Part shown: one piece after another, positions 33,402 to 47,838 of the stretch
Layout of the letters: the number at the start of each line of letters is the position of its first letter
Numbering within the stretch: position 1 is the stretch's first letter
From: Candidatus Zixiibacteriota bacterium
Lineage (GTDB): Bacteria > Zixibacteria > MSB-5A5 > GN15 > FEB-12
Assembly (NCBI GenBank): GCA_019038695.1
Contig: JAHOYZ010000007.1
Location: forward strand, 124,001-188,000
Reading direction: 5' to 3'
DNA length: 64,000 bases
Made by a program: the position numbers and the translations under genes
The notes under the pieces: generated by a model
What the model was told of the DNA's origin: nothing
Databases searched by the model: none
What the model saw: only the letters and a program-made list of their open reading frames with translations

Positions 33402-33749
33402 CTACATCGTGAAGAAGCGCTCACCCTTGATGATCTTCTCCAGCATTTGGAGGGTTTTTTCAACGGGAGCATGCATAATGTCTGTGCTATTGAAGGTGGA
33501 CCGAACAACCTCACGAGGACAATCAAAACTGGATCTGCCACGTCCTCCGCGAGCTTTCTTCTTGTGCGCCAGATTATACTGCCGTTGATATTCCTTCGCC
33601 TTTTCCTTGTGCATCTGATAGTACCGGCGCTGATACTCCCGACGCGCCTCTGCAGTAGAGAGACTACCTTGCTTCTTCTCCGGATTGTCGGCCTTGGATG
33701 GAGATTCAGTGTTGGTTTTGGATTGGTCGGTCTTCCTTGCCCGAGCCAT
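33402..33749 (-). CDS. Small basic hypothetical protein
   Basis: A 115-residue, strongly basic protein, start ATG 33749 with GAGGTAGGAC upstream. The middle holds an imperfect repeat (EYQRRYYQMHKEKAKEYQRQ and YNLAHKKKAR) that predicts an amphipathic helix of tyrosine, arginine and lysine. The first 30 residues are polar and disordered; the last 35 (STDIMHAPVEKTLQMLEKII) may form another helix. I know no family. The basic helix suggests binding to nucleic acid, but this is composition only. It lies 134 bases upstream of the PPDK gene on the same strand, which also begins with a lysine-rich tail. Confidence 0.6.
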   Translation of the reverse strand: MARARKTDQSKTNTESPSKADNPEKKQGSLSTAEARREYQRRYYQMHKEKAKEYQRQYNLAHKKKARGGRGRSSFDCPREVVRSTFNSTDIMHAPVEKTLQMLEKIIKGERFFTM

Positions 33750-34203: not shown

Positions 34204-34244
34204 AAAAATCAGCCGCCCGGCAGTTGACCGGGCGGCTGATTTTT
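34204..34244 (-). terminator. Strong terminator of the 12-gene cassette operon
   Basis: AAAAATCAGCCGCCCGG (34204-34220) and CCGGGCGGCTGATTTTT (34228-34244) pair perfectly over 17 bp around a 7-base loop. It begins 17 bases after the last stop codon of the operon, and on the minus strand ends in five T within the stem. Confidence 0.95.
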
Positions 34245-34261: not shown

Positions 34262-35101
34262 CTATGGTGTCTGTATTTTGGCCTTCTTGGATTTGACGTG
34301 CTGGACAATCTCCTTAAGAATATATCCAAAAACGAGAGCCATCATTAGCCAGAATACAAGCAGATATCCGATATGGTAATCAGAAATATCATTATTAACA
34401 TTCCAAGCCAAATTACCCCAGTGGTCAACATCCTGAATACGCTGAATAAACAGGGATATACGAGCCATCACTGTAAATCCAAAGGATGCTCCGAAGCCGA
34501 TCATCAACGTCCAAATGCCTACTTTGGCCATCCTCCCGAACCAGCCCGTGTGAGCTTTGGAGAAGAAGAAGTATACCAGGCCAGTCATAACACCAACAAA
34601 GATGATTGCTTTTGAAATTCCAGTGGAGATGTCTATAAGGTTGAAACCTCCATATCCAAATATGTAGCCATAGAGATCAGTCGTATCGACTTGAATCAAC
34701 TGCATAGTCGCATATAGTTGTTTGTTTATCCTGTTGGCCATCTCGAGGGGGATAGCAATACCGGTGGCAATACCGATATACATGGCCATCGGATAACGCG
34801 AGACCCAGGAATAGTCCTTCGAAAACCGTGTCCACATCAGGGCACCAAGTATAGCTGGAATCAGATACCAGGGCTGAGTAGAATTCAACCAGAGGAAAAA
34901 CCAGTCACCATCGGCCAGTCGAGCAAACAGGTTTGGTTTCAGGCCATTGTGCCATAGGATAATGACAAAGTAACCGGCTGAAACACCAACCACAAGATGC
35001 TCGGCGAACTTGTAGAACGGATTGTCTTTGTAGAGGAACGAAAAGATAGACAGCGTCACAAAGACACCGAATGTTGTCCATAAGAAGGTTGCGAAATCCA
35101 T
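34262..35101 (-). CDS. Cassette 1, A subunit: polytopic membrane protein of unknown family
   Basis: A 279-residue protein with about seven hydrophobic helices and basic C-terminus (VKSKKAKIQTP). It shares with the A proteins of cassettes 2 and 3 the segments SFLYKDNPFYKFAEH, VVGVSAGYF, SRYPMAMYIGIATG, GLVYFFFSKAHTGWFGRMAK and GFGASFGFTVMARISL. Unlike them it has an extra C-terminal helix (GYLLVFWLMMALVFGYIL). The conserved charged loop SKxHxG-FGxxxKxGIW lies at a membrane boundary and may contact partners. I do not recognise the family. It overlaps the stop of the B gene by one base and is the last gene of the operon. Confidence 0.85.
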   Translation of the reverse strand: MDFATFLWTTFGVFVTLSIFSFLYKDNPFYKFAEHLVVGVSAGYFVIILWHNGLKPNLFARLADGDWFFLWLNSTQPWYLIPAILGALMWTRFSKDYSWVSRYPMAMYIGIATGIAIPLEMANRINKQLYATMQLIQVDTTDLYGYIFGYGGFNLIDISTGISKAIIFVGVMTGLVYFFFSKAHTGWFGRMAKVGIWTLMIGFGASFGFTVMARISLFIQRIQDVDHWGNLAWNVNNDISDYHIGYLLVFWLMMALVFGYILKEIVQHVKSKKAKIQTP

Positions 35102-35979
35102 CAGCTCACCTCCCCGCGTTTCCTCTTTGACCTACTGGCAAAGAAACCAATATTACCCATTATAATAAACAGGATAATAACCAAATGAGCCGGCAACTGT
35201 ACCTTCATAGCCTCCATAGCTCGTCCGGGATTATCAGCATAGGATTCGTATTGGGCAGCACCAAGCATTCCACCCATCATACCCCTAACCTGACCTGAAC
35301 CATAGAAAGGATAATACTGAGCGGTCATAACTCCCGTAAGACCGAAGAAGAGTGGAAAACCGAATCTACCCTGCCCATATGATATCCAGGCGTCAGAAAT
35401 AGTTCCACTGGAAAGAGAGAGCACACAGGCTACCTGATCATAATTAATCACGCCCTGCATCATCGGTAGAGAATCAATCGCAGTACCGTAATAGTCAGCC
35501 GGAAACGGCAGGCGGAAATCCTGCCCCATCCCCAGTATTACAAGAGCATAGTATGGTTTATAGCCAAGGAAGGCATAATCAACACCATTTACGATCTCTC
35601 TTCCCTTGTATTCCACACTGTGGTAGGATCTGTCAAGGACCATCGAATCGCTAAGATCACGAATCACCTGATCAGCCATTCCAGGACCCTGTTGTGAGAG
35701 AGCCGTAAATATGATCTTCAGATCCTTACGCCAGCAGTGTTCGACAATGGCATATGTCATAGGGTGTAGCTCTGCCATGGAGTTCGGATCATAGTCAATT
35801 GCAATAAAGACAATCTCTCCAGGAGGAAGACTATCGATAAAATCATAGACCTTACGTGACTCGTCCTCCGGCAGTATGGGCACTTTGTAATCGATATAGT
35901 ATGATGCAACACATACTACGATCAGAAACAGGAAGACCCATCGACGATCCAACTTCATTAGTTTTTCAAATACGTCCAT
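35101..35979 (-). CDS. Cassette 1, B subunit: bitopic protein with large extracytoplasmic alpha/beta domain
   Basis: A 292-residue protein. DRRWVFLFLIVVCVASYYID is the first membrane helix, followed by about 225 residues of alpha/beta sequence and a final helix (AHLVIILFIIMGNIGFFASR) with basic tail RSKRKRG. By the positive-inside rule the central domain is outside the cytoplasm. Conserved with B2 and B3: LPPGEIVFIAIDYDP, ELHPMTYAIVEHC, VDYAFLGYKPYYALVILGMG and a glycine-rich GMMGGMLGAAQYES before the last helix. It lacks the two additional N-terminal helices of B2 and B3. Function unknown. Confidence 0.85.
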   Translation of the reverse strand: MDVFEKLMKLDRRWVFLFLIVVCVASYYIDYKVPILPEDESRKVYDFIDSLPPGEIVFIAIDYDPNSMAELHPMTYAIVEHCWRKDLKIIFTALSQQGPGMADQVIRDLSDSMVLDRSYHSVEYKGREIVNGVDYAFLGYKPYYALVILGMGQDFRLPFPADYYGTAIDSLPMMQGVINYDQVACVLSLSSGTISDAWISYGQGRFGFPLFFGLTGVMTAQYYPFYGSGQVRGMMGGMLGAAQYESYADNPGRAMEAMKVQLPAHLVIILFIIMGNIGFFASRSKRKRGEVS

Positions 35980-35991
35980 AGTATGCCCTCC

Positions 35992-36819
35992 TTATCCTTT
36001 CCCCATATAGCTGCGCTCGATACCCAGGACCACCTTCAAAGCTGTGGCTACCATTCCTAGGCCGACACCAATTACAATGGCTCTTTGAGCGGCCAGGTTG
36101 GGTACGTTCATCAACCAGTTAGAGAGTTCGGCCATCCGGTAGGAGTAGTCTCCCAGAATCCAGGGATTGAAGCGAAGCATAACAATCAAAGCAGCTATCA
36201 GAAGAAGTGATGCCAGAACATTGCGAGCACGGAAAGCTCTATAAGCCGCTGAGGCAATAAAGAACGCCAACAGAGAGAACATACTGGCCAGAATAGGCAT
36301 CAGGACATGATCAAAAAACGTCCTGAACATGCTGTTCTCAAGCCCTTCGGCTGTATAGAAATAGAAGTTCCAGGCATTATCAAACACCGCCACCAATATT
36401 GCTATAACCAAGGTGACAAGTGCCGCTATAGAAAACAGTTTCTTCTGACCAGAAGATGCCGCGACTCTTGCCTGCATGATTGAGCCGAGACACATCAAAG
36501 AAAGAAGCAGCCAGACAAAGTACATCCCCCAGGAGTCACCTGTCCTTTGCGTAAAACCGAAAGCAACCATCAAAAAGAGACCGGCCAGTGTAACATAAGA
36601 GTACTGCCAGCCTTCTTTTCTGGAACTAATCTTGTTTACTGAGACTCTGAACAATGACCATATACCAAGCGCCAGGGCGAATATCCCGATAATATAGATC
36701 CAGTCCAGAAGAAACTCGTATATCCACTCTGATTTTTCATGCGGAACAAAATACTGCAGAACCATAAAGAGTCCAAACATGAAAACCAAAGCAAATGGAA
36801 TTTGTCTTTTCATATTCAA
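35992..36819 (-). CDS. Cassette 1, C subunit: polytopic membrane protein
   Basis: A 275-residue, mostly hydrophobic protein of six to seven helices. Shared with C2 and C3 are the start MKRQIPFALVFMFGLFMVLQ, the segment MFSLLAFFIASAAYRAFRAR followed by a helix, and the end AAQRAIVIGVGLGMVATALK plus VVLGIERSYMG. Arg-Ala-Phe-Arg in a cytoplasmic loop is strongly kept. It is about 50 residues longer than the other two C proteins, mainly in the middle (SSGQKKLFSIAALVTLVIAI). The gene lies 6 bases after D1 and 12 before B1. No known family or catalytic motif is seen. Confidence 0.85.
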   Translation of the reverse strand: MNMKRQIPFALVFMFGLFMVLQYFVPHEKSEWIYEFLLDWIYIIGIFALALGIWSLFRVSVNKISSRKEGWQYSYVTLAGLFLMVAFGFTQRTGDSWGMYFVWLLLSLMCLGSIMQARVAASSGQKKLFSIAALVTLVIAILVAVFDNAWNFYFYTAEGLENSMFRTFFDHVLMPILASMFSLLAFFIASAAYRAFRARNVLASLLLIAALIVMLRFNPWILGDYSYRMAELSNWLMNVPNLAAQRAIVIGVGLGMVATALKVVLGIERSYMGKG

Positions 36820-36825
36820 CTCCTC

Positions 36826-38229
36826 CTAATCCGTCACATGAAAAAGTTCAATGAAAGCATCAAAGCCAAAATTGCCGGCAAGCAAACCGAGACAGGCAAT
36901 TACTAGAACCGCTGCCTTAGCATAATCCTGAGCCTTGAGGGAACCTAGCAGGACAGGTTCTTTCCCCAGATAGGCCGATGCCGCATAAAGCTCTTCACCA
37001 ATCAACGTATAGTCACAGGCAACAATGAAGAACGGCAATTGCGCAATCTGGTCGGTTCCCGCAATCTGAATCGACCCGGCTTCAGTTCCGGTCTCAGCTA
37101 ACAATAAGGATTCAGCGTGGAACATCCCCATATATACATTAGTAGCTGGATACTGGCGAAGCATGATCCCATTGACGGCCGCCACATACGCAAACTGTGA
37201 CTGCGTCACAAAGAATACAATATCTTCATTGTAGTTGTCAGCTCTTCCGGCATCCAGATAAGCTGACTTGACAACTTCCTGTGCCACCGACATAACAATA
37301 GGATCATAAGTCGGGACGATCAGTTCGGTCTGGTATTCAGCCACTCTTTTGGCAACGCGGCTGAGAATTGTAAACGATGCAATTGTAGCTACATCGGCTG
37401 CCGTTCCCAATCCGAGTACATAAAGAATCGGACGACCCATTTCTGTGGCGCGGCCAATAGCATCATCTACTGCCTCGATTCCACTAATGGGACGAACATA
37501 CAGATCGGCTCCTTTTCTTGCTCTTTGGACGAAGAAGATTGTCAAAGAACAGAAGAAAAGCACGGCCACAAAAACAGGAATCCGGCCAGTGTTAAACCAT
37601 TGTCCATAACATTGAACCGGCCCAATGACTTCTGAACTTGACCTGATTTCCGGATAAATGGTTACAGCATCTATCCGATAATATAAATCAGAATAATCAG
37701 GGATATAATCCTGTGACATCTTATCCTTGGTGCCGGCATTTGTGTAAGATGAAGTACCCATTGGGACATCTTTAATTGAAACCCAATCACCACCATTGGG
37801 ATATTGGGTATGGGCCTCCGGAAGACGGTCAGCAATACCAGCATATCCAGATCTTAATTCTTTGATGAGCTCCTTATAATCGACATTTGGATCATCTACG
37901 ATTTCAGCAGCTTCAATCAGACTGTCAATCTGCTGCCTCATCATCCTCAACGTGTCAACCAACGATGGAATCCACCTGAAAATTTCATAACTCAATACTG
38001 AGTTCTGCCCGTCGCCATCATCGGCCGAAATTTCCCAAGTGAGATCAATCGCATGACCATGATCGTTCGGTACATCACAGCCCTCAACCATCGACGGCGG
38101 CGCCGGTGGCGGCATAGCCAGCGAATCAGTCACCGCAGCAGTATCAGGCGGTTCGACCTCCTGAGCCAGAGCGGTAACCCCTGCCAACGTGATTAACAGA
38201 CACAGAATCAGTAGTACTTTATGCTTCAT
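36826..38229 (-). CDS. Cassette 1, D subunit: FN3-like/DUF6754-type membrane protein
   Basis: A 467-residue protein with a signal peptide (1-22), an extracytoplasmic region (23-215), a membrane helix (217-235, then basic RARKG), a cytoplasmic alpha/beta domain (240-435) and a last helix (437-455). The outer part starts like a fibronectin type III domain (HAIDLTWEIS, SYEIFRW) but is interrupted by a helical insert at about 88-145. The inner domain (ISGIEAVDDAIGRATEMGRP, HAESLLLAETG, LPFFIVACDYTLIGEELYAA, LLGSLKAQD) matches what I remember as DUF6754. First gene of cassette 1 in reading order, 28 bases after A2. Confidence 0.85.
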   Translation of the reverse strand: MKHKVLLILCLLITLAGVTALAQEVEPPDTAAVTDSLAMPPPAPPSMVEGCDVPNDHGHAIDLTWEISADDGDGQNSVLSYEIFRWIPSLVDTLRMMRQQIDSLIEAAEIVDDPNVDYKELIKELRSGYAGIADRLPEAHTQYPNGGDWVSIKDVPMGTSSYTNAGTKDKMSQDYIPDYSDLYYRIDAVTIYPEIRSSSEVIGPVQCYGQWFNTGRIPVFVAVLFFCSLTIFFVQRARKGADLYVRPISGIEAVDDAIGRATEMGRPILYVLGLGTAADVATIASFTILSRVAKRVAEYQTELIVPTYDPIVMSVAQEVVKSAYLDAGRADNYNEDIVFFVTQSQFAYVAAVNGIMLRQYPATNVYMGMFHAESLLLAETGTEAGSIQIAGTDQIAQLPFFIVACDYTLIGEELYAASAYLGKEPVLLGSLKAQDYAKAAVLVIACLGLLAGNFGFDAFIELFHVTD

Positions 38230-38257
38230 ACTGTTCTCCCATTTTGTCAGAGAACCG

Positions 38258-39070
38258 TTAACTTATTAGCTCTAGCCAATCCCTAAAAAGGAATGTGAGA
38301 CGGCCGACCAGGAGCGAGATACGCCCCATGACCGTGTATCCGAACGAAGCGCCAAAAGTGATCATTAGAATCCAGATGCCCATTTTCGAGGCTCCACCGA
38401 AAGCGCCTTTGTGTTCTTTGGAAAAGTAGAAATAAATCAGACCACAGAAAACCCCAAGGAAAATAACCCAGTTGGCCAACATTGTTACCAACTGCCCTGA
38501 TGCGTTCAGCGAGAGATTCGAGAAGAAATGGCCTATACCCTGCCATTCAACCAACAGTGGCACAAACGTAGACGACACCTGATTGATGAAATCGGAGCGC
38601 AGGTAGCGCACAAAATTGAACCCGGCCGTGGTTCCGACAATGAACGCCAGCGGCCAGCGAGAAATCCATCCGTACTTGCTCGACAGACGCATCAACAACA
38701 GAATGCCAAGGACAACCGGGATAAAGTAGAACAGGTTCTGGTTGTCCGCCTCATACGGAACCTCGAAGAAACCTGAGAGTGATTCAGAGATTCGTGGTAC
38801 GAGATTGCCCACAATAGTCGTCCAGAAACCCATGCACATCCAGAAAGCAGCCGATACGCCGACGAAAAGATGCTCGGCGAACTTATAGAACGGGTTGTCC
38901 TTGTACATGAACGAGAAAATGGCCAGAGTCAGAAAGGCGGCAAAGGTATACTTGAAACCGTCGATGATATAGTGTCCACCATCATCCGCCAGAGAACCGG
39001 ATTTCAAAATCCAACTCAGCACAAAAAGTGCGCCTACGACCGTCGCAACAATGATCGGACCGCGTCTCAT
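38258..39070 (-). CDS. Cassette 2, A subunit: polytopic membrane protein
   Basis: A 270-residue protein of about seven helices. It begins with one additional helix (GPIIVATVVGALFVLSWIL) absent from A1 and A3. Conserved pieces are IFSFMYKDNPFYKFAEHLFV, SRWPLAFIVGTTAG, GLIYFYFSKEHKGAFGGASK and TFGASFGYTVMGRISLLVGR. It ends at DWLELIS, nearly the same as A3 (DWLGLIN), whereas A1 runs on. The start overlaps the B2 stop by four bases, indicating translational coupling. Family unknown. Confidence 0.85.
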   Translation of the reverse strand: MRRGPIIVATVVGALFVLSWILKSGSLADDGGHYIIDGFKYTFAAFLTLAIFSFMYKDNPFYKFAEHLFVGVSAAFWMCMGFWTTIVGNLVPRISESLSGFFEVPYEADNQNLFYFIPVVLGILLLMRLSSKYGWISRWPLAFIVGTTAGFNFVRYLRSDFINQVSSTFVPLLVEWQGIGHFFSNLSLNASGQLVTMLANWVIFLGVFCGLIYFYFSKEHKGAFGGASKMGIWILMITFGASFGYTVMGRISLLVGRLTFLFRDWLELIS

Positions 39071-40023
39071 TCACGCCTCCTTCTGCGTTTGGCCACAAAG
39101 AAGGATAGATTACCAATCACGATGAAGATCATGATAACCATATGAGCCAGAGTCTGCGGTCCCATCATACGGAGACCGGGAGTATCCATATCAGCGAAGC
39201 GAGGATAGTGCTTGATCAGTTCGGATTCATACTCGGCCGCCCCTTTGATCCCGCCGAGAATCCCCAATATCTGTTTGGGGTAATAGGGATACATCTGCGG
39301 GGCAACTACGGCGGCCACACCGGCGGCAATCGGCACCTGACCCGGGTCGCCTACAAACAACACCCATTCCTTAACTCCGGGCTTACCGCCACCGATAGAC
39401 ACGACCAAGTCGAGGTCTTTGCAGGACCTAATGCCACGGAGAGCTTCAATGCTGTCGTAGGGGATGTTGTTGACATCGGTCGGGAACATCTTTTTGAAAT
39501 TAGTAATAATGACGTTGAGCACGCCTTCATTGCCGGCCTTGTAGCCCAGGTTAACATAGTCCTGGCCCTCTACAAGCTCCGGGAAGCCTTCAACAACCAC
39601 TTCCTGAAGACTCTGCGTCAACAATGCCTGGCCGGTGGCAAAGAGAGACATGAAAACAACTTTGTGGCCACGAGACAACGCATGACGGGTGATGGCATTG
39701 GCCATCGGCTGTACTTCCGGCGCCATAGCCGGATCAAAATCAAACGAGATCAATACGCTAGAGCCTTCGGGCAGTGATTCAACTTTGTCGTAGACCGCCT
39801 TAACCACCGCAGTGGCTTTCTCGGAGAATGTCATTGGGAACAGGATCGGCGCTGCGACAGACAGGGCAATGAACAGGAAGATGATCCGACGATCGACCTC
39901 TCTGCCCTTGAGCGCACTGATAAGCAACCACACCAGGCCACCGCCGATGAATATCAGCGAGATCGTTCGGCCGACATCAACCAAAGCAACGAGCGGAATC
40001 GACAACCACAGATCAGGCATCAA
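39067..40023 (-). CDS. Cassette 2, B subunit: membrane protein with extracytoplasmic alpha/beta domain
   Basis: A 318-residue protein. Three N-terminal helices (up to about residue 65; the third is DRRIIFLFIALSVAAPILF) precede a 220-residue alpha/beta domain and a C-terminal helix (AHMVIMIFIVIGNLSFFVAK) with tail RRRRRE. Conserved motifs are LPEGSSVLISFDFDP, EVQPMANAITRHA, QDYVNLGYKAGNEG, SIGGGKPGVKEWVL, APQMYPYYPKQILG and GGIKGAAEYES. The Asp-rich FDFDP sits at the end of a predicted strand, where it could be a metal or ligand site (inference). Start and stop both overlap the neighbouring genes by four bases. Confidence 0.85.
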   Translation of the reverse strand: MMPDLWLSIPLVALVDVGRTISLIFIGGGLVWLLISALKGREVDRRIIFLFIALSVAAPILFPMTFSEKATAVVKAVYDKVESLPEGSSVLISFDFDPAMAPEVQPMANAITRHALSRGHKVVFMSLFATGQALLTQSLQEVVVEGFPELVEGQDYVNLGYKAGNEGVLNVIITNFKKMFPTDVNNIPYDSIEALRGIRSCKDLDLVVSIGGGKPGVKEWVLFVGDPGQVPIAAGVAAVVAPQMYPYYPKQILGILGGIKGAAEYESELIKHYPRFADMDTPGLRMMGPQTLAHMVIMIFIVIGNLSFFVAKRRRRRE

Positions 40024-40694
40024 TCGTCCCCCCCGAGATACGTGCGTTCGATGCCGAGAATAATACGCAGCGACATCGAAACCACGCCCAGTCCGATACC
40101 GATCAGGATCGCACGTTGTCCGGCAAGATTGGGTGAGTTCATGATCCAGACTGCCATATTGGGAACCTGTAAAATGTCAAAAGACTCCGGTATCCACCCG
40201 GTGGCCATCATTCCAAACGGCGTGCGCCCCAGCAGGATTATAAACGCGGAAATCAGGAGGATCGTAGCCTCGCGATTCTTGGCCCGGAAAGCACGATACG
40301 AAGCAGAGGCCACAAAGAAGGCCAGCAACGAATACATCGTCGCCCCCAGCGGTACAAGAACATAATCAAAAATTTCCTGGAAAAGCGATCCCGCTGCGGT
40401 AGGCTGAGCGGCGATACCGCCGGGATTACCAAGCTTGAACATCCCTATAGCCAGCACAACCACGAACCCCACCAATGTGACAATGGAGAATGGCCAATCG
40501 GTCTTGCGGTTCTGAAGCTTGTTGACGTGGACTCTCAGGAGATTACCGCCACCGAGGAAAAAAGCGAACACGGCAATGATGTCAAAGAAGACCGTGAAAT
40601 CCTCACCCAACGTTTCCATCGGTGGAATAAACACCGACAGAATCAGCAGGGTGCCGATTCCAAACGTGATAAGGAGTGGTATTTCTCTCTTCAT
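40020..40694 (-). CDS. Cassette 2, C subunit: polytopic membrane protein
   Basis: A 224-residue membrane protein of about six helices. MKREIPLLITFGIGTLLIL opens it; HVNKLQNRKTDWPFSIVTLV is a cytoplasmic loop shared with C3 (SGQKVIGKKSDWGFAVVI); MYSLLAFFVASASYRAFRAK and GQRAILIGIGLGVVSMSLRI with ILGIERTYLGG are the strongest conserved segments. The final acidic GGDD occurs also in C3. It lies 6 bases after D2 and overlaps B2 by four bases. Confidence 0.85.
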   Translation of the reverse strand: MKREIPLLITFGIGTLLILSVFIPPMETLGEDFTVFFDIIAVFAFFLGGGNLLRVHVNKLQNRKTDWPFSIVTLVGFVVVLAIGMFKLGNPGGIAAQPTAAGSLFQEIFDYVLVPLGATMYSLLAFFVASASYRAFRAKNREATILLISAFIILLGRTPFGMMATGWIPESFDILQVPNMAVWIMNSPNLAGQRAILIGIGLGVVSMSLRIILGIERTYLGGDD

Positions 40695-40700
40695 AAACTC

Positions 40701-41960
40701 TTACTGCGCCGTAAACAGCACTGTCAGCCAGCGCACGACGTCGTTACAAATTTTCACATCCCAGGCGGTGCCAATAGTCACGGCCACCACTCCGACAATA
40801 ATAGCGGTCATGGCAATCGCCTTGCCCACATCCTGCCCTTTGAGTGATCCCAACTGTTTTGGTTCACCGGACAAATAAGCGGAAGCCGCAAAAAGCTCTT
40901 CGCCAATCAAAGTAAAATCACAGGCAGCGATAAAGAACGGCAGCTGGGCCGGACGGGCTGTGCCTGCAATCTGAATCGCCCCCACCGAATTGCCGGTCTC
41001 GGCTAGAATCAAAGACTCGGCAAAGAATGCACCAAGGAGGAACACTGTCGCCGGTTTCTCACGCACCATAATACCGTCAACAGCGGCCACATAGCCAAAC
41101 TGCTCATCGGTAACATAGTTAACCATGTCGTCATTGTATTTATCCGGTCGGCCAGCCGCCTGATAGGCGGTCTTGATTGTTTCGCGGGCGGCGGTCATAA
41201 CCAGCGACCGCGATACCGGCATCCGTATTTTCGTATCATAGTCGGCAATCTGCTGGGAAACCCGCCCCAGGATTGTAATTGCCGCCAGAGTCTGGACATC
41301 ATCCATATCGAGAATGCCCGGAATAAACAGGATCGGCCGTCCCATCTCGGTCGCCCGACCAATGGCTTCGTCAACCGCCTCCAGTCCGGCGATTTTACGC
41401 ACAAACAGTTTTTTGCCGCGACGGGCCGACTCAATAAAGAAGAAGACCGCTCCGGCAATGATGAGCGCCATCAGGAAAAGGTACCCACGGTCGAAATCTA
41501 TCCACTCTTGTTCCGGCGACACAGGCGCACTTGAGATAGACTTAGCTATATAGTTCTCAGAAAACGCCTCTACGAAATAGCAGTACGATTGCTCGCGCTC
41601 AAGATTTTCGTCCGCATATGAGTTCGCTTGCGGTAGAAGCTTGGCGGCCAGTTCAGGAGTATTATCGTTTACGATGCGATAGAGTCGATAGCCCAGTACC
41701 TTGCTGTCAACAAGTTGATCGTCAATGGACGGCACCCAGGAAAGCAGGAGCTTATGACCATTGTCGTATTTGTAATCTTCGACGAGTAAAGAGGTAATCG
41801 GGGCCACTACTACCAGTTCGGAGTCCGGCACGATGGCTATCGAATCCTCAGAAACAAGCGTAGAGTCACTCTCCTGAGCAGTTGCCAGTGATATCAAAAG
41901 GAAAACACAGATCAGGACCGGAAGCAATAAACGCAGAGATGGCGGCACATAAATTCGCAC
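40701..41960 (-). CDS. Cassette 2, D subunit: FN3-like/DUF6754-type membrane protein
   Basis: A 419-residue protein: signal peptide (1-29), short acidic segment, a fibronectin-type-III-like domain (about 50-150; KYDNGHKLLLSWVPSIDDQL, YCYFVEAFSEN), membrane helix (about 165-183, then ARRGKK), cytoplasmic alpha/beta domain (IAGLEAVDEAIGRATEMGRP, MVREKPATVFLLGAFFAESL, AGTARPAQLPFFIAACDFTL, LLGSLKGQD) and a C-terminal helix (AMTAIIVGVVAVTIGTAW). It lacks the helical insert of D1. Its start codon overlaps the A3 stop by one base, tying cassettes 2 and 3 together. Confidence 0.85.
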   Translation of the reverse strand: MRIYVPPSLRLLLPVLICVFLLISLATAQESDSTLVSEDSIAIVPDSELVVVAPITSLLVEDYKYDNGHKLLLSWVPSIDDQLVDSKVLGYRLYRIVNDNTPELAAKLLPQANSYADENLEREQSYCYFVEAFSENYIAKSISSAPVSPEQEWIDFDRGYLFLMALIIAGAVFFFIESARRGKKLFVRKIAGLEAVDEAIGRATEMGRPILFIPGILDMDDVQTLAAITILGRVSQQIADYDTKIRMPVSRSLVMTAARETIKTAYQAAGRPDKYNDDMVNYVTDEQFGYVAAVDGIMVREKPATVFLLGAFFAESLILAETGNSVGAIQIAGTARPAQLPFFIAACDFTLIGEELFAASAYLSGEPKQLGSLKGQDVGKAIAMTAIIVGVVAVTIGTAWDVKICNDVVRWLTVLFTAQ

Positions 41961-42631
41961 TAGTTAATCAACCCCAGCCAGTCGCCAAACAAGAAATCAA
42001 CGCGGCCGATCAAGAGTGACATACGGCTCATAACGGTGTAGCCGAACGAAGCGCCGAAGGTGACCATAATAGTCCAAATACCGATCTTGGCCGCCCCACC
42101 AAAAACACCTTTGTGCTCTTTAGAGAAGAAGAAATAAACCAGACCAGTGAAGGTACCAACGACGATAACCAGATTGCCAATTATATAGTAGGCCGACAGA
42201 TCGTAGTTTGCGCCAAAGAGTGGCATGATGGTTCCCTGCACCTGGCGCATCAAGTTGGACGAAAAATAGTTAATGAGATACAGACCCGATGTGCAACCGA
42301 CGATAAATGCCAGCGGCCAGCGCGAAATCCAGCCGATTTTCGGAACAAGCCGCATCAGCATCAAGATACCCAGAACCGCTCCAACGATTAGCCAGTAGTC
42401 CGGCTTGGCGCCTCCGATAACCTCTCCGGCTTCATTGAGTTCCTCACGTGGAAACACGCCAATCCAGAATTTGCCGTAGATGTTATCCCAGAACAGAACC
42501 ACAAACCAGTAGCCCGCCGAGATACCGACAAAGATCGCTTCGCACAGCTTGTACCAGGCATTGTCCTTATATAGAAAGGAGATTATGCCCAGAGTAAGAA
42601 AAGCGGCTACCCAGACTGCTATATGTTCCAT
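41960..42631 (-). CDS. Cassette 3, A subunit: polytopic membrane protein
   Basis: A 223-residue protein, the shortest A, with about six helices. IISFLYKDNAWYKLCEAIFV, SRWPLAFIVGCTSG, GLVYFFFSKEHKGVFGGAAK and TFGASFGYTVMSRMSLLIGR are shared with A2 and A1. An outer loop includes PREELNEAGEVIGGAKPDYW. The hydrophobic helices and conserved SKEHKG loop are kept while outer loops differ, the pattern expected when paralogous complexes keep an assembly core and change an exposed part. The gene starts 26 bases after B3. Confidence 0.85.
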   Translation of the reverse strand: MEHIAVWVAAFLTLGIISFLYKDNAWYKLCEAIFVGISAGYWFVVLFWDNIYGKFWIGVFPREELNEAGEVIGGAKPDYWLIVGAVLGILMLMRLVPKIGWISRWPLAFIVGCTSGLYLINYFSSNLMRQVQGTIMPLFGANYDLSAYYIIGNLVIVVGTFTGLVYFFFSKEHKGVFGGAAKIGIWTIMVTFGASFGYTVMSRMSLLIGRVDFLFGDWLGLIN

Positions 42632-42657
42632 TTTCTAACGCTTCTCGTTCGTATCCG

Positions 42658-43662
42658 TTAGAGTTTCTTTTTCCGGCCACCTACAAAGAAGGCGACATTA
42701 CCGATGATGATAAAGGCGATCACTATCATATGAGCAAACGACTGCGACAACATGAACTTGGTCGCATTGCCGGTGTACTCAGTCAGTTTTTCAAACTCGG
42801 CCGCGCCGTTCATTCCACCCAGCAATCCAATCAATTGACCAGCATTTAGATAGGTGTACATCATTGGCGCCTGCACCGCGGTGTTGCCAGCTCCCATCCT
42901 CAGGCCATAACGATCAACGGCAACCTGTACCCATTCCTGGGTGCCGGGGTAACCGGCCGAAAGATTTAATGAATAATCGATATTTGAAAAATTCTTGACA
43001 TTCTTTACAAGCTCAAGTTCCTCGTATGGCCTACCCGAATAGTCGGTCCGGAACATCGAACTAAAATCAGAGCCCATGCGCTGTACAACAAATTCATTCC
43101 CGGCCTGATAGCCAAGGTTAACGTAATCGATGCCATACTGCAGGTTTTTCGCTGCGATTTCCTCTGAAACCAGAAGTTCCTCGAGCGCCAGATTAGCCTG
43201 CTGGGGACCCTGTGGCCAGAGGCCGATGATGATAACCTTGAGGTCATTTAGGAGACAATATCTAAGGAAGGTATGAGCCATCGGCTGCAATTCGGGTGCA
43301 GAGGGTGGATCATAATCAAATGATATGAGCACCTTCGATCCGGCTGGAAGCTCGGAAACAGCATTATAGAGCTGCTGAACTTCATCGGAGATGCGAATTT
43401 TCTGTGACATCGTCATAAAGAACGGCGCCACCACCGCTATACCCACAAACAGAAAGACCGTCCGCCGGTCAATCAGGTGACCTTTCACCGTCCGTACCAG
43501 GACGTAGCCCAGGAACAGAACTATAATACCAACCACGATCATAGACACAGTCGGTGAAAACCGCACGGCATCAATCCATCCGAATACTTTGCCCAGATAA
43601 ACGACAACGCTGAACAGCAGCACGATCCCGATAGTCAGAAGTTCCTTGGTGCGAGTAGACAT
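42658..43662 (-). CDS. Cassette 3, B subunit: membrane protein with extracytoplasmic alpha/beta domain
   Basis: A 334-residue protein with three N-terminal helices (about 8-30, 38-60 and 67-85), an alpha/beta domain outside the cytoplasm (about 90-300) and a C-terminal helix (AHMIVIAFIIIGNVAFFVGG) ending in RKKKL. Shared motifs: LPAGSKVLISFDYDP, ELQPMAHTFLRYC, IDYVNLGYQAGNEFV, YPGTQEWVQVAVDRYG, APMMYTYLNAGQLIG and GGMNGAAEFEK. Compared with B1 it has two extra N-terminal helices. The gene follows C3 by three bases. Confidence 0.85.
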   Translation of the reverse strand: MSTRTKELLTIGIVLLFSVVVYLGKVFGWIDAVRFSPTVSMIVVGIIVLFLGYVLVRTVKGHLIDRRTVFLFVGIAVVAPFFMTMSQKIRISDEVQQLYNAVSELPAGSKVLISFDYDPPSAPELQPMAHTFLRYCLLNDLKVIIIGLWPQGPQQANLALEELLVSEEIAAKNLQYGIDYVNLGYQAGNEFVVQRMGSDFSSMFRTDYSGRPYEELELVKNVKNFSNIDYSLNLSAGYPGTQEWVQVAVDRYGLRMGAGNTAVQAPMMYTYLNAGQLIGLLGGMNGAAEFEKLTEYTGNATKFMLSQSFAHMIVIAFIIIGNVAFFVGGRKKKL

Positions 43663-43665
43663 ATC

Positions 43666-44316
43666 TTAGTCTCCCCCTCCCAGATGCGCTCGCTCGATAC
43701 CGAGAATAATGCGCAGTGAGGTCGAAACAAGGCCAAGGGCAATGCCAATCATGATTGCGCGTTGACCGGCGGTGTTCGCCCAGGTCATAATCCAACTGGC
43801 TACCTGGGAAAGCTGATAGTTCTCAGGCAGGAAAAAAGTGAGGTTATCACCCACCGGTACGCGGCCAATCATAACCAGAAATCCAGCCGCGAGGAGTAAG
43901 GTTGCTTCGAGATTTCGAGCGCGGAAGGCGCGATATGAGGCCGAGGCGACAAAGAAAGCCAGGATGGCAAACATCGTAGCCGACAACGGCGAATAGACGT
44001 AGTCGTACAACCACGAGAATCCGGTGCCTGGCTCGCGGAACCCTTCTCCTTCAAAAAAGCCGATACCTACCATGAGTAGAAATGACAAGATGATCACAAC
44101 CGCAAAACCCCAGTCGGATTTTTTGCCGATCACCTTCTGACCGGATATTTTCAGAAGATTAAGAGCACCGAGCCAAATCGCAAAAGCTTGAACGATGGAA
44201 AACCAGTCGGAGAACCAGCTGTTCATCTGGCTGAACGGCCAGTGCGGGATAAAGTACTGCAGGACGAAAGCCACGCCCACAATACCGGTAATCATCAGAG
44301 GTATTTCTCTACGCAT
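43666..44316 (-). CDS. Cassette 3, C subunit: polytopic membrane protein
   Basis: A 216-residue, six-helix protein. It shares with C1 and C2 the opening MRREIPLMITGIVGVAFVLQ, the segment MFAILAFFVASASYRAFRAR, and GQRAIMIGIALGLVSTSLRI with ILGIERAHLGGGD. The arrangement Tyr-Arg-Ala-Phe-Arg-Ala followed by a helix is identical in all three cassettes. It lies two bases after D3 and three before B3. No similarity to a named transporter or secretion family was recognised. Confidence 0.85.
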   Translation of the reverse strand: MRREIPLMITGIVGVAFVLQYFIPHWPFSQMNSWFSDWFSIVQAFAIWLGALNLLKISGQKVIGKKSDWGFAVVIILSFLLMVGIGFFEGEGFREPGTGFSWLYDYVYSPLSATMFAILAFFVASASYRAFRARNLEATLLLAAGFLVMIGRVPVGDNLTFFLPENYQLSQVASWIMTWANTAGQRAIMIGIALGLVSTSLRIILGIERAHLGGGD

Positions 44317-44318
44317 AC

Positions 44319-45575
44319 CTAATCAATCACTCCGAACAAGGTTGAGACCGACCAAATGTTGAACGTCTCGAGTAAAACACCAAGCACAATTGCGACCAAA
44401 ATGATCGCTTTGCCGACATCCTGACCCTTGAGACTGCCAAGCAACTTGGGTTCTTTAGCAAGGTAGGCCGACGCCGCAAACAGCTCTTCACCAATCAGTG
44501 TGAAATCACACGAGGCAATAAAAAACGGCAATTGTGAAGGCATCGCCGTGCCAGCTATTTGAATGGCACCAATTGAGTTACCAGTTTCGGCCAGAATCAA
44601 TGACTCGGCGTAGAAGGCTCCCATGAAGAAAATCGTAGCCGGTTTCTCGCGCACCACCATGCCATCAATACCGGCCGCATAGCCAAACTGGTCATCGGTC
44701 AGGTAGTGAACCTGGTCTTCATTATAAGCATCAGGCCTGCCAACCTTGGAGTATGCCTCTTTGACGATCTCCTTAGCCGTCACCAGCACCAGTGAACGCG
44801 ACACCGGGACTTCCAGATAAGTATCATAGGTAGCAGCCACTTCGGCCACTCGACCCAAAATCGTAACCCCGGCAATTGTCTGGACATTATCCATGTCCTG
44901 TGTGCCGGGGATGAAATATATCTTTTTACCCATCTCGGTTGCGCGGCCAACCGCTTCATCAACCGCTTCGAGACCGGCTATCTTGCGAATAAACAGCTTC
45001 TTACCCTTCTTGGCCTGCGAAATATAGAAGAGGATAAAGCCACAGAGCACGATCACGCCTACAAAGACGTTGATCCGTCGCCAGTCAAACCACTGCGCCG
45101 ACGAACCCACCGGACCGCTGGAGCCTGATTCGGTAAGCGACTCTATTTCGATACCATCTACGCCGATCGCGCTATAGATCACGGCAACTCGGTAGAAATA
45201 ATCCAGGGAATCAGCAACGTGACCATCCAGGAACTCGGTGCTACCCGCAGTGTTTCCGCCGACCGGTTCATATTGTCCCGGCTCGCCATTGATCGCTTCA
45301 GCTCGTAAGACACGATATAGCTTGATAGCAATCCCTTCGGGCGGAGTGGGCTCGGTCCAACGGATAGTAATAGAACCGCCAGCATCGTTGGGCGTATCTT
45401 TCACTGAGATGTCAGTGGGGGGCTTGAGCGGGTTAGAATCGACAACGGGAGTCGACACCGATTCATCCTGAGCAAAAATCAGAGAGGCACAGAAAATCAA
45501 AAGAAAAAACAGCAGACAAGTATGCGCGAAGCTACCAAAAGTGCGACGACTTCGAAAGACCGGGTGCAACTTCAA
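44319..45575 (-). CDS. Cassette 3, D subunit: FN3-like/DUF6754-type membrane protein (first gene of the operon)
   Basis: About 418 residues from a TTG at 45575, chosen because ACGAGGAAG lies upstream and the product then begins as a normal signal peptide (MKLHPVFRSRRTFG, then CLLFFLLIFCASLIFAQ). The frame is open to a GTG at 45659, which would add 28 residues but has no ribosome binding site. A fibronectin-type-III-like domain (GGSITIRWTEPTPPEG, KLYRVLRAEA, YFYRVAVIYS) precedes a membrane helix (VFVGVIVLCGFILFYIS, then QAKKGKK), the cytoplasmic domain (IAGLEAVDEAVGRATEMGKK, MVVREKPATIFFMGAFYAES, ASCDFTLIGEELFAA, LLGSLKGQD) and a last helix. Confidence 0.85.
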   Translation of the reverse strand: MKLHPVFRSRRTFGSFAHTCLLFFLLIFCASLIFAQDESVSTPVVDSNPLKPPTDISVKDTPNDAGGSITIRWTEPTPPEGIAIKLYRVLRAEAINGEPGQYEPVGGNTAGSTEFLDGHVADSLDYFYRVAVIYSAIGVDGIEIESLTESGSSGPVGSSAQWFDWRRINVFVGVIVLCGFILFYISQAKKGKKLFIRKIAGLEAVDEAVGRATEMGKKIYFIPGTQDMDNVQTIAGVTILGRVAEVAATYDTYLEVPVSRSLVLVTAKEIVKEAYSKVGRPDAYNEDQVHYLTDDQFGYAAGIDGMVVREKPATIFFMGAFYAESLILAETGNSIGAIQIAGTAMPSQLPFFIASCDFTLIGEELFAASAYLAKEPKLLGSLKGQDVGKAIILVAIVLGVLLETFNIWSVSTLFGVID

Positions 45576-45721
45576 ACTAATCTTCCTCGTGCAGGAGTCA
45601 GTTACAGAACGTTCGCTATCGTAATCATAATAGACGAACCGACCAGCTAACTTGTCCACTTAAATCGACTTAGTTCCGACAGCCTGATACAACGTGAGCA
45701 TCAACTCCCGGAACAAGCGAC

Positions 45722-45750
45722 AATGTAGACCGGTGCTGATTTCAAGTCAA
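45722..45750 (-). promoter_or_regulatory. Sigma-70-like promoter of the 12-gene operon
   Basis: On the minus strand TTGACT (45745-45750) and TACATT (45722-45727) are separated by exactly 17 bases. The site precedes the first cassette gene and leaves a leader of about 140 bases to the TTG start. Confidence 0.55.
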
Positions 45751-45900: not shown

Positions 45901-47838
45901 TTAGAATACGATCTTGCCGTTTCGATAGAAGAAGCGGTCACCCTTATTGAAGGCGCACATATACTCACAGTCAGTGTGCCCATCGGCCACAGCTCTATCT
46001 GCAAATTCCTGATACCGATATTCGTTGTCCAGAGCGTGCTCTGGGAAGAAAACCTTTGGCTTCAGTTTATCCAGAGCATAGTAAACGCCCAGTTTGACTG
46101 CCTCAAGGTCACCAAAACCACAACCGGAAATCGGCATAAAGGCAATATCAATATCGAGGTTCATGTCGGCCAGATAGTCAATTTCCGCTGTGTACGGACC
46201 GGAAAAATCACGTAGTCGGTTGGCATGATCGGCCGCCTGAAAGATTGTCAGACCGTCCACTTTGATGAGGAATCCAACGCCGCTATCGTTGGAGGTGATC
46301 GTTGATACTTCCATGTTACCCACAGTTTCAGTCTGTCTCGGCCCGATAAACCGATAGCCACTGACACCGTCATTCTCAAAACCCATTATATAGGTGATGT
46401 TGGGGATTGTCTCACGCCATTTGAAGATATTCGTATCAAAATGGTCGCCGTGTTCATGACTGACGAAAACGGTGACATTGAGGTTCTTGACTTCCTCCGC
46501 AGAAATGTGACCATTGGAGATGAGGGCTTCAGTAGGCGGCTGGTTCCGCTCCCAGTAGTCAAAGACTAACAGGTTATTCTGCGTCTTGATCGCCCAACCT
46601 GAATGACCAATGTACCAGACGATTCCCTCGCCGTCGCTTAACGATTTTTCCAACAATGGGCAACGTCCAAAGTTCTTCTCCATATCAGGTGCGGTTACGC
46701 CTTTGGCCAACAGAAGGTCAGCTACAGTACGATGACCATATTTGCCGGCATAGTGCAATGGAGTGAGACCTTTGTTGTCTTTGACGGTCAGGTCAGCTCC
46801 TGAGGACACTAGCAGTTCAACGATATTTAAGTATCCCTTGGTGCAGGCATAATGCAGTGGTGTGCCACCTGTTTTCAGATTGGGAAGACTTGCGTTTGCC
46901 CCATTGGTCAGCAGCACCTGACACATCTCTACCGAGCCTTCTTTGACAGAGTTGTGCAGAGCCGTCATTCCGTTGGTGTTTATTATGTCCGGATTAGCAC
47001 CCTTCTCAAGTAGTGTGCGGGCGACATCGACATGACTTCTCCACGATGAGAAGATCAGTGGCGTGGCTCCAAAATCGTTGGTCAGGTCAGGATCAGCACC
47101 GGCGTCAAGAAGATAGTCGACTGTCACGACACTACCGCTAATGGCAGCTTCATGAAGAATCGTTCCTCCAGAACTATCGCTAACGAGAAGATCTGCTCCG
47201 TTGTCCACGAGCAGGCGGAGCATATCAGTATGACCACGCGCGGCAACACCAAAAGCAATCGTTTGTCCCTGATTATTGCGGATGGTGGCATCTGCTCCTT
47301 TGGCTAGCAAGAGACGGACAGCGTCGGTACGCCCTCGACCTGCCGCGAAAGTCAACGGTGTAGCCCCCTCGCCATTTATAACATGAATATCGGCACCTTC
47401 CTCGATTAGTAGCTCGATCATTTCCGTGCTACCACCTATGGCCGCAAAGGTAATTGCGGTATTTCCGAAATTATCTTGATACCCGACATCGGCGCCTTTG
47501 CTAATCAGCAAACGAGCCATATCCAAATAACCCCGCATAGCAGCCGTAATGAGAGCGGGACTGCCCTCGTTGTCGCCGGCATCAACCTCGGCTCCAGCAG
47601 TAAGAAGCATCTTGGCAATCGCAGTGTTGTTTTCAAGAACAGCTACATGCAAAGGTGTGTTATTGTTACTGTCCCTGCTCTCAAGCTGATCCGGAGCTTC
47701 CAAGATAAGACTCTGGACCATAGTTGTGTCGTTGTTCTGAATGGCTTCGTGCAGCGGGTCGGCGCCAGAGATAAGGGGGAGTGAAAGCAACACACCCGTT
47801 ATGAGTAGAATTACCATTGGTCTCATCGCTTTGTTCAT
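45901..47838 (-). CDS. Exported ankyrin-repeat protein fused to a metallo-beta-lactamase-fold domain
   Basis: A 645-residue protein with a signal peptide (about 1-26), eleven consecutive ankyrin repeats (about 28-393; repeat type TPLHxAxxxGxxxxVxLLLxxGAD) and a C-terminal metallo-beta-lactamase-fold domain (about 405-645). That domain has the metal motif VSHEHGDHFD (His-x-His-x-Asp-His), IVWYIGHSGWAIKT at its start, DGLTIFQAADHANR and FMPISGCGF, resembling the UlaG/YtnP-like group that cleaves phosphoesters or lactones. I read it as a secreted hydrolase with a protein-binding arm. Periplasmic ankyrin-hydrolase fusions of this type are unfamiliar to me. Convergent with no gene; alone on its transcript. 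Confidence 0.85.
   Translation of the reverse strand: MNKAMRPMVILLITGVLLSLPLISGADPLHEAIQNNDTTMVQSLILEAPDQLESRDSNNNTPLHVAVLENNTAIAKMLLTAGAEVDAGDNEGSPALITAAMRGYLDMARLLISKGADVGYQDNFGNTAITFAAIGGSTEMIELLIEEGADIHVINGEGATPLTFAAGRGRTDAVRLLLAKGADATIRNNQGQTIAFGVAARGHTDMLRLLVDNGADLLVSDSSGGTILHEAAISGSVVTVDYLLDAGADPDLTNDFGATPLIFSSWRSHVDVARTLLEKGANPDIINTNGMTALHNSVKEGSVEMCQVLLTNGANASLPNLKTGGTPLHYACTKGYLNIVELLVSSGADLTVKDNKGLTPLHYAGKYGHRTVADLLLAKGVTAPDMEKNFGRCPLLEKSLSDGEGIVWYIGHSGWAIKTQNNLLVFDYWERNQPPTEALISNGHISAEEVKNLNVTVFVSHEHGDHFDTNIFKWRETIPNITYIMGFENDGVSGYRFIGPRQTETVGNMEVSTITSNDSGVGFLIKVDGLTIFQAADHANRLRDFSGPYTAEIDYLADMNLDIDIAFMPISGCGFGDLEAVKLGVYYALDKLKPKVFFPEHALDNEYRYQEFADRAVADGHTDCEYMCAFNKGDRFFYRNGKIVF

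Follow-up and report, generated by a model that had tools for sequence, protein, structure and literature searches.

Three tandem D-C-B-A cassettes of a Zixiibacteriota genome as possible membrane modules of a conserved, ATPase-coupled envelope complex

What kind of system is encoded by twelve consecutive membrane-protein genes that repeat one four-gene cassette three times? The question is raised by a 64,000-nucleotide stretch of contig JAHOYZ010000007.1 from a Candidatus Zixiibacteriota bacterium (positions 124,001 to 188,000; hereafter the window), in which a check of the open reading frames finds twelve co-oriented genes on the minus strand at 34262-45659, forming three successive D-C-B-A cassettes. 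The initial annotation had placed twelve genes here in this threefold order, with no gap longer than 28 bases and with some overlaps of 1 or 4 bases, and had taken A, B, C and D for clear paralogue families. All of this is borne out: the intergenic gaps measure, 5' to 3' on the minus strand, 2, 3, 26, -1, 6, -4, -4, 28, 6, 12 and -1 bases, and the copies within a family share 35-55% identity. As the best explanation, which we advance tentatively, the cassettes would be three paralogous inner-membrane modules of a conserved ATPase-coupled multi-subunit envelope complex.

Among the four cassette proteins, only D has a family assignment. All three copies are members of DUF6754 (PF20539), far above the cut-off (382-420 bits against a gathering score of 27, E 1e-114 to 3e-126), with E=2.8e-126 for the D of cassette 1 (44319-45659, minus strand as throughout the array), 3.8e-123 for that of cassette 2 (40701-41960) and 1.1e-114 for that of cassette 3 (36826-38229). 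This family covers one domain of one subunit and comes without a recorded function or system. For the N-terminal part of D, profile searches against the PDB and a confident AlphaFold2 model of the cassette 1 protein, built from 86 aligned sequences (predicted local distance difference test, pLDDT, 91.7), agree on an FN3 domain; model and positive-inside rule together give the order signal or membrane helix, periplasmic FN3, membrane helix, cytoplasmic alpha/beta DUF6754 domain and C-terminal membrane helix. The frame of the first D opens with a GTG at 45659, about 40 codons upstream of a signal-peptide-like helix, and not at 45575, where the initial annotation ended the feature; a true start downstream of this GTG is probable and may explain the earlier figure. 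B (42658-43662, 39067-40023 and 35101-35979 in cassettes 1, 2 and 3) consists of N-terminal membrane helices, a periplasmic alpha/beta domain and a C-terminal membrane helix, within which alignment and hydropathy place an invariant His311 and Asn322; its AlphaFold2 model, from 90 aligned sequences, is likewise confident (pLDDT 94.2) and agrees with the positive-inside rule on the outside position of the domain. Hydropathy and the positive-inside rule make A (41960-42631, 38258-39070 and 34262-35101) and C (43666-44316, 40020-40694 and 35992-36819) polytopic, A being marked by the conserved motifs SFLYKDNPFYKFAEH and FGASFGYTVMARISLL, and conserved polar residues are present in membrane helices of the cassette proteins. 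Paralogue alignment ties the A, B and C copies of cassettes 2 and 3 to those of cassette 1, and the layout first proposed for the four proteins, with FN3 outside and DUF6754 inside in D, an outside domain in B and polytopic A and C, stands.

The possibility, raised at the outset, that the four would turn out to be distinct known families did not materialise, since A, B and C match no Pfam or NCBIfam family above cut-off and D matches DUF6754 only; PDB profile searches with A, B and C likewise gave nothing significant. Foldseek returned only FN3-type matches for the full D model, masking the DUF6754 part, and for the B model no match under E 1e-3 in either the PDB or the viral library. As far as these models go, no solved structure significantly resembles D or B beyond the FN3 of D. 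In the succession of strands and helices between two membrane helices, the models of B and D look alike; profile comparison gave nothing for homology of A with C or of the B domain with the D domain.

Directly after the last gene, the A of cassette 3, lies a strong intrinsic terminator with an 18-pair stem (34204-34244, minus strand), and upstream of the first D there is a weak promoter-like site (45722-45750, minus strand, 9/12), such sites being no more numerous in the region than expected by chance. Taken together, the two fit one 12-gene transcription unit. Protein identity to cassette 1 is, for copies 2 and 3 respectively, 51 and 44% in D, 50 and 40% in C, 38 and 35% in B and 55 and 39% in A, all far above chance. 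At the DNA level, however, even the best blocks of direct repeats between cassettes are only about 61-76% identical, which argues for an old array; an assembly artefact or duplicate is ruled out by this divergence together with the same 3.5-3.7 kb cassette spacing in a single-contig genome (G039). Quick trees of D and of B (with SH-aLRT, approximate likelihood ratio test, support only) cluster the copies by array position, so that cassettes 1, 2 and 3 each form a class of their own with few exceptions, and shuffled labels were never equally clustered. Class 2 falls together with the cassettes that occur singly in Planctomycetota, Acidobacteriota, Gemmatimonadota and Calditrichota (support 99 and 100). 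These position classes point to cassettes that were duplicated early as whole units and then kept distinct, and, by the sequence comparisons, the classes that make up the triplication are ancient, orthologous and specific to position.

A local curiosity of one genome is ruled out as well, since DUF6754 is present in 132 of the 132 Zixiibacteriota genomes searched, mostly in 3-6 copies. A contig scan of GTDB, which covers the best 80 of 566 confirmed matches, so that the true range may be wider, found relatives in Latescibacterota, Stahlbacteria/WOR-3, Coatesbacteria, Eisenbacteria, Fermentibacteria/Aegiribacteria, Gemmatimonadota, Cloacimonadota, Calditrichota, Planctomycetota, Acidobacteriota, Neomarinimicrobiota, Deltaproteobacteria/Myxococcota and TA06; most are metagenome-assembled genomes (MAGs), and lineage labels are those of the sequence records. 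Nearly all relatives, across about 14 phyla, hold the order D-C-B-A. It is also kept in almost every one of 79 loci drawn from many phyla, where the intergenic gaps have medians of 10, 0.5 and -0.5 bases, and in locus L102 B is fused with A. The conserved A-B-C-D linkage in other genomes, named in the initial annotation as support for a common complex, is very strong. None of 14 well-known control genomes has DUF6754, and D is carried by 76 of 294 sampled Planctomycetota genomes, some of them single-contig assemblies.

Clustering of the proteins that neighbour D-C-B-A loci recovered two further partners, E and F, preceded by the genes of two small proteins, G and H. The unit H-G-E-F-D-C-B-A is contiguous, in full or for the most part, in Zixiibacteriota, Fermentibacterota, Acidobacteriota, Planctomycetota, Gemmatimonadota and Fidelibacterota. 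The multi-subunit envelope complex that had been suggested for A-D gains support from this linkage, but the unit is larger than proposed. In locus L113, E is fused with F; apparent E-F fusions in several Planctomycetota, seen as long open frames around F, proved on inspection to be overlapping frames. Matches to a bacterial PH domain occur in 2 of 9 members of H (bPH_6, best E 1.8e-6). Models of PHROGs and PADLOC match none of D, C, B, A, E and F, which gives no place to the system in phages or anti-phage defence as covered by these two libraries.

E, of about 620 residues, is an ASKHA ATPase of the GlmL/MutL family (PF13941, 428-432 bits, 432 in the window's genome) with intact motifs DCGSTTTK, GVDIGGATTD and GSGGVLSHAP, and its 63-85% identity across phyla is, by sequence comparison, an unusually high degree of conservation. 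Its relationship to GlmL of glutamate mutase and Or-4 of ornithine aminomutase, with which it has the ASKHA core in common along the whole Pfam model, could make it a GlmL-type reactivase and the whole locus a cobalamin-enzyme accessory, in which the membrane proteins would be either bystanders or helpers of a B12-dependent mutase. We consider this highly improbable, since E is longer than the roughly 450 residues of GlmL by an extra C-terminal part and remains under the cut-off of all three GlmL-family NCBIfam models (229/475, 219/600 and 173/204 bits; the orthologue from locus L060 scores 229.2 against 475 with NF040745 and 173.4 against 204.05 with TIGR01319). By these cut-offs E is not GlmL. 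It is linked to membrane genes and not to a mutase: none was recognised among the clustered neighbours, where F, G, H and D-C-B-A recur, the rest of the genomes lying outside the search, and the membrane genes co-occur nearly 1:1 with F.

This co-occurrence of D and F is tight. F turned up in all 22 of the D-bearing genomes of other lineages that were tested, in some as fragments. D is patchily distributed in Planctomycetota: both proteins occur in 68 genomes, D alone in 8 and F alone in 2, and 216 lack the two (Fisher p=7e-55, shared ancestry not corrected for). In Acidobacteriota F occurs in 3 of 4 D-bearing genomes and in 0 of 293 others. F itself is a cytoplasmic barrel-sandwich protein of about 375 residues, the N-terminal part of which exceeds the Pfam cut-off for RnfC_N slightly (28.9 against 25.6 bits) and matches NQRA_N weakly, while its C-terminal part weakly resembles a KOW domain. 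With F as an RnfC/NqrA-like subunit, the invariant His and Asn in the last membrane helix of B and ExbB/ExbD genes nearby in several lineages, a membrane complex of the Rnf/Nqr kind, coupled to ions or redox reactions, could be imagined. However, F scores 14.4 against 245.95 bits on the full RnfC model and by its sequence is not RnfC; beyond RnfC_N the protein is without a match to RnfC, no cysteine is found among its invariant positions, and neither RnfD/E nor NqrB nor a flavin subunit appears among the recurrent neighbours. As the barrel-sandwich fold is also common to many non-redox proteins, we rate an Rnf/Nqr-type complex as decidedly unlikely.

Five DUF6754 copies are present in the window's genome, three in the array and one each on contigs C37 and C9, where they also precede C, B and A, so that five D-C-B-A modules stand against a single E, F, G and H. 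In the two extra cassettes (locus L006, 2181-5243, and locus L007, 7344-10505) the D proteins have 302 and 370 residues, shorter than the array copies, and apparently lack FN3. Contig C34 carries E and F, next to a TolQ/TolR/TolA/TolB-like set, and G-H are found on the same contig as the window, some 97 kb ahead of its start. Between E and F in Zixiibacteriota, the window's genome included, is the gene of a secreted, membrane-anchored protein of 252 residues (L117, 9910-10668) with relatives in ten loci and, for one relative, only a sub-threshold Pfam match to PsbP; it is a possible lineage-specific subunit.

Paralogous modules expanded around one E/F pair, polytopic A and C and conserved polar residues within membrane helices would also suit a transporter or export family in which each cassette handles another substrate, with E/F serving all of them as a regulatory or energising subunit, and an operon judged from sequence to encode a sugar ABC transporter is divergent to the extra cassette on C9. 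On the other hand, A and C resemble no transporter family, the neighbours of the tandem classes are not substrate-specific, and throughout the phylum the classes follow array position, as those of substrate-diversified transporters do not, which leaves such a family unlikely in our view. Within the envelope complex that we favour, the multiplication of the membrane module while one ATPase is kept suggests either of two arrangements: the modules probably either belong together as distinct subunits of a single larger assembly or stand in for one another for particular clients, with one E/F hub in common.

ATP coupling appears the best supported of the readings. The analysis shows which genes are present and in what order, the ancient orthology by position, the co-occurrence of D with F, the topology of the domains and the conservation of the ATPase motifs; the physical complex, this coupling and the envelope role are what we infer. 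The single cytoplasmic ASKHA-fold ATPase E, with F as adaptor, would dock on the cytoplasmic DUF6754 domain of D; binding and hydrolysis of ATP by E would put the A/C/B/D membrane bundle into another state, and this change could drive or gate the periplasmic parts, namely the FN3 of D and the alpha/beta domain of B, with G and the PH-domain protein H as presumed small accessory proteins. In Zixiibacteriota the membrane module would have been multiplied, as three tandem position-specific classes plus extra singles, around the one retained ATPase. Type IV pili with PilM-PilN-PilO-PilP, type II secretion with GspL-M and FtsA likewise pair a cytoplasmic actin-like ATPase fold with inner-membrane proteins that have periplasmic domains. 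The system may work like such platforms (PilM/PilNOP, FtsA) without being one of them: the shared plan is a likeness, no sequence relation was found, and the platforms have no counterpart of polytopic A and C, of DUF6754 or of the paralogous cassettes. Put more boldly, and held with somewhat greater caution, H-G-E-F-D-C-B-A may be an undescribed, ASKHA-ATPase-driven core cell-envelope machine of several diderm phyla; in Zixiibacteriota, three diverged D-C-B-A modules would surround one ATPase as a hetero-assembly.

The ASKHA fold and very high conservation of E could instead reflect a cytoskeleton-like scaffold, E polymerising at the membrane like FtsA or MreB with D-C-B-A as its anchor, and the PH-type H, the small conserved G and a DUF4388 gene after the cassette in WOR-3 might be seen in the same light. 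Polymerisation is, however, not readable from sequence and the DUF4388 link is confined to one lineage; we regard positioning of this kind as rather improbable. In these WOR-3/Stahlbacteria loci (L071, L072, L079, L083, L085 and L115), A is followed in conserved order by the DUF4388 protein, small membrane proteins and ExbB/ExbD/TonB-type genes.

Several observations weigh against the ATPase-coupled complex. E-F, G-H and D-C-B-A can be separate loci in Zixiibacteriota, and 8 Planctomycetota genomes carry D without detected F (counts unadjusted for MAG incompleteness). Genes outside H-G-E-F-D-C-B-A also differ between phyla: Gimesia has ExbD, in Zixiibacteriota Tol genes neighbour E-F, WOR-3 and Fermentibacterota carry TonB-type genes, and elsewhere glycine cleavage or lipid genes occur, so that context does not fix the process served. 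ExbB/ExbD, Tol or TonB-type genes adjoin the system in several lineages, though not constantly, and hint at envelope energetics. ExbD, Tol, glycine cleavage, CdsA and YegS genes were left out as system parts since they change between phyla.

Around the array, the window holds at 30370-33267 (minus strand) a protein that resembles pyruvate phosphate dikinase and is extended at its N terminus by about 75 Lys/Ala-rich, histone-like residues. Relatives (L050, L052, L054, L102) retain the dikinase-like gene, and a basic protein of 115-118 residues (33402-33749 in the window) is encoded between it and the array. A 645-residue protein (45901-47838), encoded on the array's strand and immediately upstream of it, appears, by eye, to have ankyrin-like repeats and, after them, a metallo-beta-lactamase-fold domain. 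In Fermentibacterota and another lineage, apparent glycine cleavage genes lie directly upstream of the operon (L123, 1612-5952; L088-L091), and L123 has a lipoyl ligase gene after A.

Linkage gives good support to a multi-subunit envelope complex, for which the ATPase-coupled function is a proposal. We know of no described system of this composition, as the initial annotation had also stated, and neither the family libraries nor the open-access papers searched, which leave aside subscription papers and preprints, hold a description or a paper naming DUF6754/PF20539. Three of the four membrane families are without a name, and a GlmL-type ATPase is here linked not with a mutase but with a proposed membrane complex. 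With the operon defined, D and F co-occurring and the system present in Planctomycetota, a phylum with cultured members becomes available for knock-out. The conservation of gene order in about 14 phyla and the presence in every sampled Zixiibacteriota genome suggest that the system likely has a basic role.

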